Shown here: positions 51,061 through 57,126 of the stretch, in pieces
How positions within the stretch are numbered: the first letter of the stretch is position 1
How the letters are laid out: every line of letters begins with the position of its first letter
Source: Bacteroidota bacterium
GTDB lineage: Bacteria; Bacteroidota; Bacteroidia; Bacteroidales; WCHB1-69
DNA: 64,000 nt
NCBI GenBank assembly: GCA_022708105.1
Contig: JAKIZI010000006.1
Coordinates: 1 to 64,000, forward strand
Direction of reading: 5' to 3'
The notes under the pieces: model-generated
Databases searched by the model: none
What the model saw: the letters and a program-made list of their open reading frames with translations, nothing else
What the model was told of the DNA's origin: nothing
Translations under genes and position numbers: made by a program

Positions 51061-52176
51061 CTATTTCAAGGTCATTGTAACCATAACCTTTCCGTCGGAA
51101 AGAGTTTCCTCTAATTGTTCGGTAATTCCCGATAAGATGATTCTGCTAAGGCCGTCTGTTTCTTCCACCGGATTGAGAATTGTCCCGAGGGCTTCGTCTG
51201 CCGCAAACGAGAGCGATATGGCACGTGTTTGTTCCGCAAACGACAACATAATTTCAATACCTCCATGATCCCGAATAATGCGGTTTCTCTCGGCTGCATT
51301 GCCCTCCACAAAACACAACTGTAAAGTCTCTTCCACCGCCAGATTGAGATTGTTTATCTCCTTCGGTCCAAAAAAATGTTTATTGGCGAAATTTTCGATG
51401 CCGGCACGTAAATCATAAAAATCATACAGATTATCGGCAATATGATAACTAAAATTGCGAATTCTTCGAATAAACGAGATGGTCTTTTCTTTTTGAGGAT
51501 GATCAAAAATCTGCTCCGGTGTTCCTTCTTCATAGATGATTCCCTCATCCATATACAACACCCGCGTAGAGACATCACGGGCAAATTTCATCTCATGAGT
51601 TACAATGGCCATAGTCATCCCGTTGGAAGCCAATCGTCTGATTACGCCCAGTACTTCACTCACCATTGTGGGATCTAATGCCGAGGTAGGTTCATCAAAG
51701 AGAATAATTTCCGGTTCCATCGAAAGACAACGGGCAATGGCCACTCGCTGCTGCTGACCTCCGGAAAGCTCATCCGGAAAAGCATCTTCCTTAGCAGCCA
51801 GGCCCACCAATTGTAACAACTCGCGCGCTTTCGCCACTGCCTCTTTTTTGTCCTTATTTAATAACTTAATCGGACCAATCGTCAGATTGTCGATTACCGA
51901 CAAATGCTCAAACAAATTGAAGTTCTGAAAAACCATTCCCATCTTTTGTCGCAAGTGATTCAAATCGTTCTTGGTGTCCATAATGTCCACCTCATCGATA
52001 AAAATCTTTCCTCCGGAGGGTTTTTCCAAAAGATTAAGACAACGCAGAAAAGTACTTTTTCCTGTGCCCGAAGGACCAATAATGGAGATAATTTCCCCTT
52101 TTTTAATTTCTATATTAATCTCTTTTAGTACCGTTAACTCTCCAAATTTTTTTGAGAGTTGTTCAACCTTTATCAT
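51061..52176 (-). CDS. Polar amino acid ABC transporter ATPase with C-terminal RsbW-like pseudo-kinase domain
   Basis: A 371-residue protein. Residues 1-240 are a complete GlnQ/HisP-type ATPase: Walker [10 protein letters not shown] (34-42), Q-loop Gln84, signature LSGGQ (137-141), Walker B IILFDEP (157-163) and switch His194. Family members normally end near residue 245; here about 130 extra residues follow. That extension contains [13 protein letters not shown], which lines up with KLNLALEEAVSNV of the kinase domain in the neighbouring SpoIIE protein. Leu287 replaces the Mg-ATP Asn, and the DxG and GGLG boxes are not kept. It probably keeps the fold without kinase activity. It is the last gene of the five-gene operon. 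Confidence 0.9.
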
Positions 52177-52197: not shown

Positions 52198-54447
52198 TTA
52201 TTTTGTTCTTTTTGCACGTTTGGGAGCTGTCCGTAGTTGAATGCGCTCAATCAGGTAGGTAAGCAACCATGCCAATAAAAAATAGATAATGGCAATCATG
52301 ATTAACGGAAAAAACGCATCAAATGTACGGCTTCGTATGATATCACCCGCCTTAGTCAAATCCTGCACCGCAATGTAGCCTACAATGGCCGTCATCTTGA
52401 CCAATGCAATAAATTCGCCTTTGTACACGGGCAATACGCGCTGCACCGCCTGAGGAAGAATTATATTCAGGAATGTTTTCACTTTACTGAAACCCATAGC
52501 AATTCCGGCTTCCCACTGCCCCCGCCCGATGCTCTCAATCGAGCTTCGGAACATCTCGGAAACATAAGCCGCAAAATTCAAAGCAAATGTGATCACAGCA
52601 ACCCCTAATCCGCTGATATTTAAAGGCGAAAGAATAACATAAAACATCAGCATCAACAAGACAACCTGCGGAATTCCCCGCAACAAGTCGATATATATTT
52701 TCGCAATAAGTTGCAATCCCTTGGAGCGGCTCATTCTCATCATACATACAATCCCTCCCAGAAAAGTTCCCAACAAGGCGGCAAATAAAGATATGAGAAA
52801 AGTCACCTTCAACCCCGACCACAACAATAAATAGCGTTTTTCCAGAATAATATTGTTATAAAAACTCTCTTTGGTCCGCTCAATAAATGATTTGGAGTTC
52901 GCTTGCATTTGATTGTCATTCTTGTAAGTAACCAACACCTGAGGATTAACGAAATAGCCGTCGGAGAAGTTGACCACTTTTCGCCGTTCTTCGGTAGCCG
53001 TCATATTTGAAATGACCAGATCGGCTTTACCTGATTCGAGTGCCGCAATAAGCGCAGAGAATTTCATATCGTAATACTGTACCGGTCGTCCCAATTTATA
53101 GGCAATTCTCTCTATTAGCTCACAGTCCAGACCGACGATAGTATTATTCGAAATAAAACACATCGGTTCACGATTGGCAGCAATGGCAACCACAAGAGGT
53201 TTTCCTGAAGTTACTTTAGGAATCTCCGTTAACTCATACGCAGACCCATCAGGTCGTACCCACCGCTTGATAATGGAATCTAAAGTCCCATCCTGTTTAA
53301 ACTCCGCCAACACCTTATTGACCTCATCCAATAGTGCCGTTTGATTTTTAGAAAATGCAATTGCCGCATATTCATCCGTAAATTCTTTCGGCAGCACCAC
53401 CAAATCTTTATTCTTATTAGCAACCTTCAGGGCTGTTGTATATGCCGTAATGACATAATCCAATTTGTGGGCTTGCAGCGAGGCAACGGCATCCATAATA
53501 TCATCAAAACATTGAACCGTAGCCTTGGGAAAATGTTCCCTGATGTACATCTCTCCGGTAGTTCCGGTCATCGCTCCCACCACCGCATGAGATAAATCAT
53601 TCCCATTCCGGGGATTATCTTCTTTTTTTGTGACAACGAATTCTTTCTTTTTATGCTTTTCCACTCCGTAATCCTTGATAACAGCTGCAATGCCGCCATG
53701 ATAATAAGGCTCTGTAAACAAAACACTTTTTGCCCGTTCTTCGGTAATCGTCATACACGCGCCAATGATATCCACTTTTGCTGAGAGCAAAGAAGATATC
53801 AGGGCTCCGAAATCCATATTCACGACTTCCAATTTTTTCCCCAATGCTTGAGCCAACAAGGCGGCAAATTCGACATCAAACCCGACAATTTCTCTCTTTT
53901 CGTCAAAAAATGAAAAAGGCTCTGTGAGGGCACTGGTTCCGAAAGTCAACACGCCATTGGTTCCATCCAAGATTATTTCCGGCATGGGCGCGGGTTTTCC
54001 CTTGGTAGGGAACCATCTTTTCATCATATCGTCATATCGCCCGTCGGAACGTAATGCCGCCAACAAAGAATCGGCCACCCGTTTCAGTAAAACATCATCC
54101 GGTCGAACAGCCATTCCGTAGCTATCTTCGGTAATCAGCTCCGGCAAAAGTTTCAATCCCGGATTCTTGGCCATGATATTTTTTAGAATGGGTTCATCGT
54201 AAGCCGCGGCCTTTTCGATGCCTTTTTGGACTGCGATACAAGCATCCAGTGGTGAATTGTAATAGACACACTCCGCCTCGGGAAGTTTTTGCCATACCAA
54301 TTGGTCGGCAATCGTTCCGGTAACAACTGCAATCCTTGCTTGCTTCAATTCTTCTAAATCAGTTACTTCTTCAATCTTTGTTTTATTACAAGAAATAAGA
54401 AGAATAGAAAATATGCAAACGGATAAAAAAAGAGTTATTTTTCTCAT
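52198..54447 (-). CDS. Lipoprotein fusion: four SBP_bac_3 lobes plus amino acid ABC permease
   Basis: A 749-residue protein. A lipobox (LLISC, Cys20) follows a short leader. Periplasmic segments resemble half-domains of family 3 solute-binding proteins in the order lobe II (about 25-146), lobe I (165-257), lobe II (283-397), lobe I (416-508). Lobe I landmarks are IVGFDVEFAALLAQALGK and IVGLDCELIERIAYKLGR, each followed by MTITEER or MTATEER. Residues about 540-735 are a HisM/GlnP-type permease with EAGIAMGFSKVKTFLNIILP as the ATPase-docking loop. The ATPase gene follows by 21 bases. The ATG overlaps the STAS stop (ATGA). Confidence 0.88.
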   Translation of the reverse strand: MRKITLFLSVCIFSILLISCNKTKIEEVTDLEELKQARIAVVTGTIADQLVWQKLPEAECVYYNSPLDACIAVQKGIEKAAAYDEPILKNIMAKNPGLKLLPELITEDSYGMAVRPDDVLLKRVADSLLAALRSDGRYDDMMKRWFPTKGKPAPMPEIILDGTNGVLTFGTSALTEPFSFFDEKREIVGFDVEFAALLAQALGKKLEVVNMDFGALISSLLSAKVDIIGACMTITEERAKSVLFTEPYYHGGIAAVIKDYGVEKHKKKEFVVTKKEDNPRNGNDLSHAVVGAMTGTTGEMYIREHFPKATVQCFDDIMDAVASLQAHKLDYVITAYTTALKVANKNKDLVVLPKEFTDEYAAIAFSKNQTALLDEVNKVLAEFKQDGTLDSIIKRWVRPDGSAYELTEIPKVTSGKPLVVAIAANREPMCFISNNTIVGLDCELIERIAYKLGRPVQYYDMKFSALIAALESGKADLVISNMTATEERRKVVNFSDGYFVNPQVLVTYKNDNQMQANSKSFIERTKESFYNNIILEKRYLLLWSGLKVTFLISLFAALLGTFLGGIVCMMRMSRSKGLQLIAKIYIDLLRGIPQVVLLMLMFYVILSPLNISGLGVAVITFALNFAAYVSEMFRSSIESIGRGQWEAGIAMGFSKVKTFLNIILPQAVQRVLPVYKGEFIALVKMTAIVGYIAVQDLTKAGDIIRSRTFDAFFPLIMIAIIYFLLAWLLTYLIERIQLRTAPKRAKRTK

Positions 54448-54758
54448 ACATTTGATTGTTCAAAAGTAAAAAGCGATGAAAATCCGGTCATATCGAAAAT
54501 GCTCTTGATTTCAGCACTCATATCTCGAATAGATAATTTCCCCCCTTTTGCCAATGCACTTTTTTGCAACACCAAAAAAAGACGCAATCCAGAACTGCTG
54601 ATATAGGTAAAATCGGCGCAATCCAAAATCACATGTTGCATAGTACCCTCCAATATCGGGGCAATAGCCTTTTCAAATTCTCCTGCCGTAGCGGTATCCA
54701 ATCGACCTGCAATTTTCACTAAAGTACATCCTTCAATAATTTCAATCTTAACTTCCAT
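54444..54758 (-). CDS. STAS-domain phospho-switch protein (anti-sigma-factor antagonist-like)
   Basis: A 104-residue SpoIIAA/RsbV-like protein. The regulatory loop is TYISSSGLRLFL, with Ser55 at the SpoIIAA phosphoserine position. It lies 28 bases after the SpoIIE phosphatase-kinase gene and overlaps the permease fusion by 4 bases. In known systems unphosphorylated STAS proteins bind RsbW-type kinases and free a sigma factor; here no sigma factor is encoded nearby and the next two genes are a transporter. A paralogue lies at 42455-42760. Confidence 0.94.
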   Translation of the reverse strand: MEVKIEIIEGCTLVKIAGRLDTATAGEFEKAIAPILEGTMQHVILDCADFTYISSSGLRLFLVLQKSALAKGGKLSIRDMSAEIKSIFDMTGFSSLFTFEQSNV

Positions 54759-54786: not shown

Positions 54787-57126
54787 TTAGATTTTCTTTT
54801 TCATCGTAAAAATATTAATATCATGAATTCGGCTATAAGTAACCTCATTCATAATCTGTTTGATCAAATAGATGCCTAACCCACCTATAGGACGTTCTTC
54901 TGCAGATAATTCCAAATTTGGGTTTTCCGAGAGTGTAGGATCAAACGGGATTCCGGAGTCCGTAACTGTAAAGATTAAATCGCTCCCTTTCAGCGAAACA
55001 GAAACAACGATTTTTTTTCCGGGTTCTTTGGGATAGGCATACAAGATCACATTGGAAACGGCTTCCTCCAAGGCTAAATTCAATTTCAGAACCAATGCAT
55101 CTTCCAATCCCAAGTCATGTCCTACCCCTTCGATAAATTCGTACAGTATCGGAATTTGTTGAATTTCATTAATTAAGGTAATGCTTTTTTCATATTTTTC
55201 TTGGCCCCCCACAAAAGTAATGGCCAACATGGTCATATCGTCCGATTGGGGAGCATGGGCAACATGATGCGTCACATCTTCGAGTACCCCTTCAATCAAC
55301 AATTGGGGCGTAGCAAACTCTTTTTCGGAGAGAAACGCAAGTAATCGTTCTTCTCCGTATAAAACCTGTTCGCCGTTTTCTGCTTCCGTTATGCCGTCTG
55401 TATAGAGAAATAATGTACTGCCCGCATTGAGTTGATAGGATTGTTGTTTAAATTCAAAATCCTCATATAAACCAAGCGGCAAATTGGGAATAACCGAAAA
55501 ATAGGAACTTGTTTTCTCGATTAATAAGGGAGGATTATGTCCTGCATTACAATATTCGAGCATGCCTGTCCGTAAATCCAACAACCCTAAGAAAAGGGTT
55601 ACAAACATATTTGATTCATTATTTTCCGACAACGACCGATTAAGTCCGGCCATAATTTCGGCAGCTGTATTATAATGCAAGGAAACGGTTCGAAACAAAC
55701 TACGGGTTACGGCCATGAGTAGAGATGCCGGAATTCCCTTTCCGGAAACATCTCCAATAATAAAATACAATTTTTCTTCATGAATAAAATAATCGTACAA
55801 ATCTCCGCCGACCTCTTTTGCCGGGATAAGTACCGCAAATTGTTCAATCTCTTTTCTTGAAGGAAACGGGGGGAACGTTTTGGGAATCATCCCCATCTGA
55901 ATTTCCCGTGCAATTCTTAATTCACTTTCTATTTTTTCTTTGGCACTTGTTGTATCTTTTAATGTTTGAATATAATGGACTAAATTATGTTGCATATATT
56001 CAAAAGCATCGTGTAACTCCCGCATTTCATCTTGAGTATGAATATCGGGCAAGATAATATTAAAATTTCCTTTGGCTACATCTCGTGCCGAAGTCGCAAA
56101 ATGATGCAACGGCGATAACTGGCGGGTAATAATTCTGGCAATAATAACTGTCAATAATCCCAATCCAATGATGATGACAATGAGTAAAATAATGGAAATC
56201 GAACGCAATGGCAAATACATTTCCGATTTGGGAAACAGAACGGCCAATGTCCAATTGCTCGAAGGTAACGGGGCATAATACATTACACGCTCAATTCCGT
56301 CCAACGTACTGCTCACGAAACCACTTTTGTTACGTTGCATATCCCGACCGATTTCTCTCAATTCTGGGTTATTTTTTTCTTTGGCATAACTAAAAATGGT
56401 TTGATTCATTATCAACTCCTTATTCGGGTGCGTCACAAAAGTACCGTTGCGCGAAAGTACCGATGCATAGCCTGTTTCTAGTATTTTTAACGAAGAAACC
56501 ATCTCCGTAAAGCGGTCTAAAGGCAAATCCATGGTCAATATGGCAACGATTATTTCTTTCCCGTTAGAATCCAAATATACCGGAACCGAATAGGTCGTCA
56601 TTAATGCATTTCCGCCCCCCTCATCATAATAGGGTTCTGACCAATATGGCTGCTGAATGCTCATGGGAATCTGGTACCAATCCATGACAAAATACTCATA
56701 ATTCTCATTTCCCAATTGAATGCTCCGAATAGAATCCCCATCCCGATAGGAATAGGGCGAAAAATAAAGTCCTTTGTCTTTAAAATAGTTCGGGGTAAAA
56801 GCAATTGCCGAGCCAATAATCTCCGGATTCTGTGCAACAATTTGACGCGTCAGGTCCATAAAGGTGTCCGGATGATTAATCATTCTGGTTATCATCCATT
56901 TATAATTGTCTGCAATCTTCATAATCGGCGCCAATATAGCTTCCGTTTGCATCACGGTATTTTCGGTCAATATCTCGGCATTTCGATAGGTCATCTCTTC
57001 TATCCGGTGTTTCGAAAAGAAATAGAACCCTGACAACGACAACACAAATAATAAAATACAAAGGGTCAAGACATAAGTAACAATTCTTGCCGATAATGAT
57101 TGCTTAAATTTATTCACAATACTCAT
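54787..57126 (-). CDS. Membrane Cache-HAMP-SpoIIE phosphatase with C-terminal RsbW-type kinase domain
   Basis: A 779-residue bifunctional sensor. TM1 (about 15-37) and TM2 (about 309-331) bound a periplasmic double-Cache sensor (about 40-305). HAMP (about 330-385) and a coiled segment lead to the SpoIIE/PP2C domain (about 410-640): GGDLYDYF, GDVSGKGIPASLL, TDGITEA and QSDDMT supply the metal-binding Asp residues. Residues about 650-779 are a GHKL kinase domain with an intact N box (Glu687, Glu688, Asn692), DSG (723-725) and GGLGIYL (748-754). It should both dephosphorylate and phosphorylate a STAS partner, encoded next. Its start overlaps the upstream binding-protein stop by 4 bases. Confidence 0.95.
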   Translation of the reverse strand: MSIVNKFKQSLSARIVTYVLTLCILLFVLSLSGFYFFSKHRIEEMTYRNAEILTENTVMQTEAILAPIMKIADNYKWMITRMINHPDTFMDLTRQIVAQNPEIIGSAIAFTPNYFKDKGLYFSPYSYRDGDSIRSIQLGNENYEYFVMDWYQIPMSIQQPYWSEPYYDEGGGNALMTTYSVPVYLDSNGKEIIVAILTMDLPLDRFTEMVSSLKILETGYASVLSRNGTFVTHPNKELIMNQTIFSYAKEKNNPELREIGRDMQRNKSGFVSSTLDGIERVMYYAPLPSSNWTLAVLFPKSEMYLPLRSISIILLIVIIIGLGLLTVIIARIITRQLSPLHHFATSARDVAKGNFNIILPDIHTQDEMRELHDAFEYMQHNLVHYIQTLKDTTSAKEKIESELRIAREIQMGMIPKTFPPFPSRKEIEQFAVLIPAKEVGGDLYDYFIHEEKLYFIIGDVSGKGIPASLLMAVTRSLFRTVSLHYNTAAEIMAGLNRSLSENNESNMFVTLFLGLLDLRTGMLEYCNAGHNPPLLIEKTSSYFSVIPNLPLGLYEDFEFKQQSYQLNAGSTLFLYTDGITEAENGEQVLYGEERLLAFLSEKEFATPQLLIEGVLEDVTHHVAHAPQSDDMTMLAITFVGGQEKYEKSITLINEIQQIPILYEFIEGVGHDLGLEDALVLKLNLALEEAVSNVILYAYPKEPGKKIVVSVSLKGSDLIFTVTDSGIPFDPTLSENPNLELSAEERPIGGLGIYLIKQIMNEVTYSRIHDINIFTMKKKI

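Follow-up and report, generated by a model that had tools for sequence, protein, structure and literature searches.

A degenerate RsbW-like domain on the ATPase of an amino-acid importer encoded with a SpoIIE-STAS switch

The ATPase of a bacterial amino-acid importer carries a C-terminal domain that is, by profile comparison and structure modelling, of RsbW/SpoIIAB-type GHKL fold and ancestry, and that its sequence motifs mark as a pseudo-kinase throughout the family. The gene lies in the window, the 64,000-nucleotide stretch analysed here (contig JAKIZI010000006.1 of assembly GCA_022708105.1, a Bacteroidota bacterium of the Bacteroidales lineage WCHB1-69), in one operon with the genes for a SpoIIE-type phosphatase and a STAS protein. 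We know of no target for many SpoIIE-STAS switches in bacteria without SigB or SigF, and an apparently dead RsbW domain in a transporter ATPase is a concrete candidate target for such switches. We consider it fairly probable that this domain is where the STAS protein of the operon docks on the importer ATPase, and that STAS thereby gates transport. Amino-acid uptake would then probably be under the on-off control of a circuit best known for regulating genes.

Results

The operon is read from the minus strand in the order SpoIIE-type sensor, STAS protein, SBP-permease fusion and ABC ATPase, and comprises the following genes and domains.

54787..57126, minus strand: membrane sensor with dCache, HAMP and SpoIIE (PP2C) phosphatase domains and, at the C terminus, an intact kinase domain of RsbW type (Pfam)
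54790..55179, minus strand: the RsbW-type kinase domain within the SpoIIE protein, intact, with N, G1 and G2 boxes and lid Arg present
54444..54758, minus strand: STAS anti-anti-sigma-type protein; YISSSGLR motif, phosphoserine region Ser54-Ser56
52198..54447, minus strand: SBP/permease fusion, amino-acid importer core; three SBP_bac_3 stretches, then BPD_transp_1 (Pfam)
51061..52176, minus strand: ABC ATPase, 371 aa; residues 1-240 GlnQ/PAAT-type nucleotide-binding domain (ABC_tran in Pfam), then the predicted C-terminal GHKL pseudo-kinase domain
51064..51456, minus strand: C-terminal domain of predicted RsbW/SpoIIAB fold, residues 241-371, ATP motifs lost

Spacings are 28 bp between SpoIIE and STAS, a 4-bp overlap (-4) between STAS and the SBP-permease fusion, and 21 bp from the fusion to the ATPase. 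Pfam E values are 4e-52 for SpoIIE, 1.2e-20 for STAS and 4.5e-21 for HATPase_c_2, and the operon holds all components of partner switching: the SpoIIE phosphatase, a STAS protein with an acceptor serine region and an RsbW-type kinase with intact boxes. In the SBP-permease gene (52198-54447) the substrate-binding domains form three stretches ahead of the permease, and the same repetition is seen in Synergistaceae-type open frames of up to about 2000 aa (L062 3-6005, L079 642-6005).

Across residues 1-239 the ATPase aligns end to end with GlnQ- and TcyN-type ATPases (NCBIfam E 1.5e-88 and 4e-92), the specific equivalog cut-offs not being reached (296 bits vs 379 for GlnQ, 308 vs 406 for TcyN). 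Walker A lies at residue 34, LSGGQ at 137 and the H-loop VTH at 192, and Walker B reads IILFDEP on direct inspection. Because the Walker, LSGGQ and H-loop motifs are present, the ABC ATPase part looks active; together with the adjacent SBP_bac_3 and BPD_transp_1 domains they assign the protein to the polar amino-acid importers.

Residues 241-371 are a real conserved domain that ordinary GlnQ proteins lack. This had been claimed in the initial annotation, and both the GlnQ and the TcyN match indeed end at residue 239. The extension is present in 74 of 86 compared ATPase loci, while the similar ATPases of the other 12 stop at about residue 240. It has no significant family match in Pfam, HATPase_c_2 scoring below threshold (E 0.052, 14.0 bits vs a cut-off of 27.4), and an ARM_ARMC5 match (E 0.04) was dismissed as chance, being found in one member only. 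The loci that bear it belong to Bacteroidota, Clostridia, Treponema, Akkermansia-type and Oligosphaera bacteria, Chloroflexi, Synergistaceae, Coriobacteria and Riflebacteria; Acetobacterium dehalogenans is one carrier that has been cultured. No stop interrupts it, and in the closest relatives (L002, L003, L007) its identity is 48-55% vs 81-86% for the ATPase part; dN/dS comparisons with the three nearest relatives gave no usable signal, as synonymous sites are saturated. The most conserved positions are D252 (71/73), F/Y263 (aromatic in 73/73), C264, K266 (K/R in 72/73), Y/H313, S314 and E315. The motifs [Y/H]-S-E (residues 313-315) and F-C-x-K (263-266) are conserved in the pseudo-kinase and not in active kinases, and possibly form a contact with the ATPase or a dimer surface.

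In the first locus set, 60 fused permeases went with an extended ATPase and 12/12 unfused ones with an ATPase lacking the extension, the remainder being cut by locus ends or without a permease frame. A rule that the extension always accompanies an SBP-permease fusion was nevertheless dropped, given that one locus of the window's family (L118 1389-6425) has an unfused permease and an extended ABC ATPase. There, two SpoIIE phosphatases flank these genes and an intact RsbW kinase follows; no substrate-binding protein was identified on this 6.6-kb contig. In a further locus, L049, a gene that joins a STAS domain to an APH-type phosphotransferase (3-1121) is immediately followed by two SBP-permease fusions and an extended ATPase.

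Neither a sequence-only PDB search with the window domain or its profiles, which gave nothing meaningful, nor NCBIfam, which has no model for this C-terminal domain, assigned the extension, and the domain is therefore too divergent for a single-step search. Single-sequence searches of 68 homologous domains gave a HATPase_c_2 match in 13 (best E 8e-4). In a profile-profile comparison (hhalign) of these 68 domains with 10 intact RsbW-type kinases from the window and the same loci, the two families aligned over 113 columns with a probability of 96.8% and E 2e-10, vs 0.1-0.8% for five column-shuffled controls and one reversed control; similarity over this alignment is 15%. Iterated HMMs built from the window's own kinase domain reach the ATPase extensions, and vice versa.

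The AlphaFold2 model of residues 241-371 (pLDDT 95.7, pTM 0.89) has the order strand-helix-helix-strand-strand-helix-strand-strand plus a short helix specific to the window. The best ten Foldseek matches are all SpoIIAB, RsbW and UsfX chains. In VIA-align the eleven best entries belong to the RsbW/SpoIIAB/UsfX/SiaB class (Z 13.4-11.3), led by UsfX 8ih8 (Z 13.4, 2.5 A, 116 residues) and including RsbW 6m37 (12.5) and SpoIIAB 1tid (12.2); LvrC follows at Z 10.2 and ordinary histidine kinases from 7.4. The shorter and most eroded Prevotella-type version, 18% identical to that of the window, keeps the modelled fold (pLDDT 95.3, Z 11.8 to UsfX). The HMM-HMM comparison with its controls and the fold rule out a chance resemblance of the kind that reading by eye can produce. 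The initial annotation had called the extension a degenerate RsbW-like GHKL domain and proposed HMM-HMM comparison and a fold search as checks; both gave a GHKL match, the ATP motifs are lost, the fold is not an unrelated one, and the relatives are without intact N, G1 and G2 boxes.

The positions at which the ATP-binding motifs would lie were mapped in a joint alignment of 73 ATPase-borne domains and 10 companion kinases.

51316..51318, minus strand: Leu287 where 10/10 companion kinases have the N-box Asn
51193..51201, minus strand: Ala326-Asp327-Glu328 at the G1-box DxG position
51145..51156, minus strand: Asp341-Gly342-Leu343-Ser344 at the G2-box GGLG position; the preceding ATP lid is largely deleted

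Leu287 in place of the N-box Asn and the degenerate GGLG box are as first described; the loss of DxG held up as well, with its position corrected from Phe-Ala-Ala to Ala326-Asp327-Glu328, two residues off. All 10 companion kinases keep the Asn, Asp, Gly, lid Arg and GGLG. Among the ATPase-borne domains the G1-box Asp and the lid Arg are absent in 73/73, an Asn is found at or beside the N-box position in only seven of the 73, and the ATP lid is shortened in every one, to 4-13 residues vs 21 in the companion kinases. An active kinase fused to the ATPase was rejected, given that the motifs are lost in all 73 domains. By these motifs the extension is a family-wide pseudo-kinase, with Ser/Thr kinase activity on STAS predicted to be absent.

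The domain architecture is rare among Bacteroidia, the window itself being the only strong match in 296 evenly sampled genomes. It occurs in many phyla and, among the genomes examined, only in those that encode SpoIIE. Within the window's family, an ATPase with the domain is present in 32 of 104 genomes, all 32 with a strong SpoIIE match, compared with SpoIIE in 30 of the 72 genomes without one (Fisher 7e-10, among the matches listed and with shared ancestry ignored). A genus-mate (G001, 96% complete) has neither the domain-bearing ATPase nor SpoIIE. SpoIIE and STAS were each found in 46/46 carrier genomes outside the family. Counting matches listed, and with genes treated as randomly placed and shared ancestry ignored, 34 of 48 copies in the window's family have a SpoIIE gene within 10 kb vs about 1.2 expected, and 15 of 70 in the other 46 genomes vs 1.9 expected.

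A STAS, PP2C or separate RsbW gene was found near none of 12 ATPases without the domain vs 14 of 74 with it, and in nine cases a stand-alone intact RsbW kinase shares the locus with the extended ATPase. One relative (L117) keeps the exact four-gene order, a STAS frame filling the gap between SpoIIE and the SBP-permease fusion. No SigB/F/G-type sigma factor exceeded the curated TIGR02980 cut-off in any of the 104 genomes of the window's family, and the classical output therefore appears to be missing there. One Riflebacteria genome (G125, that of L029) has 31 SpoIIE matches, several arranged as convergent pairs that abut exactly (for example G125:C9:88927-89508 with 89509-90090) and are either biological or an assembly artefact.

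RsbW-like domains are also found on other transporters. MATE transporters with a C-terminal RsbW-like domain lie beside SpoIIE genes in five loci (L110 1367-3142, L112 2-1834, L113 620-2395, L114 934-2694, L019 2-892) and occur in further carrier loci (L034 8799-10811, L037 9504-11465, L051 3050-4849). In several of the MATE-borne domains the N-box Asn and some of the DxG box are retained, and degeneration is therefore graded. On profile matches only, RsbW-like domains are assigned to the C terminus of an EamA-type transporter between STAS and Cache-SpoIIE-kinase genes in Synergistaceae (L111 1884-3701) and, in degenerate form near an extended ABC ATPase, to the N terminus of an SDF Na+/dicarboxylate symporter (L023 7047-8687) and the C terminus of a xanthine/uracil permease (L010 3-728). 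These domains on MATE, EamA, SDF and xanthine/uracil-type transporters suggest a broader theme. Tentatively, RsbW-like domains, dead or half-dead, may be a portable module that places unrelated transporters under direct post-translational SpoIIE-STAS control across many phyla, with transport among the commonest non-transcriptional outputs of such switches.

Discussion

SpoIIAB and RsbW bind dephosphorylated STAS and then phosphorylate it. The docking model takes up this cycle with the transporter as output in place of a sigma factor. The membrane sensor SpoIIE, given its signal by the Cache domain, would dephosphorylate STAS, which would then bind the GHKL domain on the ATPase. Binding would persist because this domain is predicted neither to bind ATP nor to phosphorylate STAS, and STAS would be held until an active kinase removes it; rephosphorylation by the sensor's kinase domain, or by a separate RsbW in relatives, would be the reset. 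Bound STAS would alter how the two ATPase subunits are arranged or paired, and with that the transport rate. In other importers, C-terminal domains at this place favour or hinder the pairing of the ATPase subunits (PMC7367683).

The initial annotation had proposed a pseudo-kinase kept as a STAS docking domain. The pseudo-kinase part stood, and from the shared operon, the genome co-occurrence and the clustering with SpoIIE, STAS and RsbW genes we infer docking. The modelled fold, the homology, the motif loss, the gene order and the co-occurrence are shown here; in the model, STAS binding would depend on phosphorylation and would raise or lower transport. Counting against docking, most copies in genomes of other families lie some way from SpoIIE (15/70 within 10 kb, though 1.9 expected). 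Arg20, known to bind STAS in SpoIIAB, has no evident conserved counterpart in the ATPase-borne domain, and the family-specific conserved residues may serve contact with the ATPase instead of STAS.

We think it unlikely that information flows in reverse, with the ATPase holding or releasing STAS according to transport activity, the importer acting as a nutrient sensor and STAS acting elsewhere. MalK, which acts on MalT, is a model for such transporter-to-regulator signalling, and the shared operon and the co-occurrence data fit; the sensor has a periplasmic Cache domain of its own, to which transport could usefully add a second input, and the targets of STAS proteins are often unknown (PMC8256260). 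However, a separate output gene is not seen in the operon, and no SigB/F/G match reaches the cut-off in the 104 family genomes.

A structural or small-molecule regulatory domain, serving ATPase pairing or substrate feedback without STAS contact while the switch genes regulate something else, is improbable. Its position would be like that of MetN NIL or MalK TOBE, it is common for ABC ATPases to have a regulatory C-terminal domain below their dimer (PMC7367683), the conserved residues are family-specific, and outside the window's family many copies lie away from SpoIIE genes. The fold, however, is specifically that of STAS-binding kinases as modelled, SpoIIE is present in every carrier genome examined and clustering is far above chance. 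Least probable, and in our judgement very much so, is that the pseudo-kinase pairs with an active RsbW or SpoIIE kinase domain and controls its activity, or is a STAS decoy, and so is not the direct target. GHKL anti-sigma kinases are homodimers, and this dimer-forming family has active kinases in the same operons, but 15% similarity to the companion kinases is more divergence than expected of heterodimer partners.

In the docking model nutrient uptake could be controlled rapidly at the post-translational level, and the domain is a bacterial pseudo-kinase conserved across large evolutionary distances. Work on MlaFB led to the suggestion that other members of the ABC family may be controlled in this way (PMC7367683), a suggestion on which an ATPase-borne RsbW-like domain bears.

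Our literature search, with most subscription literature outside its reach, found no description of a transporter-fused RsbW domain, and we found no described precedent for the ABC ATPase-RsbW fusion. With the SpoIIAB/RsbW/UsfX/SiaB kinases (HATPase_c_2, PF13581) the domain shares modelled fold, profile homology and occurrence with SpoIIE phosphatase and STAS genes; unlike them it has lost the Asn, Asp, glycine box and ATP lid, is fused to an ABC ATPase and falls below the Pfam cut-off. MetN (NIL/ACT-like) and MalK (TOBE) also have an extra C-terminal domain on an importer ATPase, placed to affect ATPase pairing, but those domains are unrelated in fold and take their signals from small molecules or from other proteins, EIIA-Glc among them. 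The analogy first drawn with the ACT domain of MetN thus holds for position and not for fold, with no NIL/ACT family match and no NIL match in the ATPase (Pfam scan, E up to 1). GlnPQ importers likewise have substrate-binding domains fused to the permease and a GlnQ-type ATPase, whereas ordinary GlnQ is without the extension, its profile ending at residue 239 here.

The nearest known systems are MlaFB and SiaABCD. In MlaFB, too, a STAS protein is encoded with an ABC ATPase that it is thought to regulate: MlaB binds MlaF, and a phosphomimetic change weakens binding (PMC7367683). MlaB, however, makes direct contact with the nucleotide-binding domain, and MlaF has a short tail, whereas the ATPase here has its own RsbW-like domain and the operon a phosphatase and a kinase; its STAS protein is not MlaB-type (NF033618, 19 bits vs a cut-off of 90). 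SiaABCD of Pseudomonas aeruginosa is likewise a PP2C, kinase and STAS module with a non-sigma output, in which SiaC, a STAS protein, binds an enzyme and activates it (PMC8457831). There STAS itself binds the output, a diguanylate cyclase, whereas here the output is likely a transporter with a pseudo-kinase.
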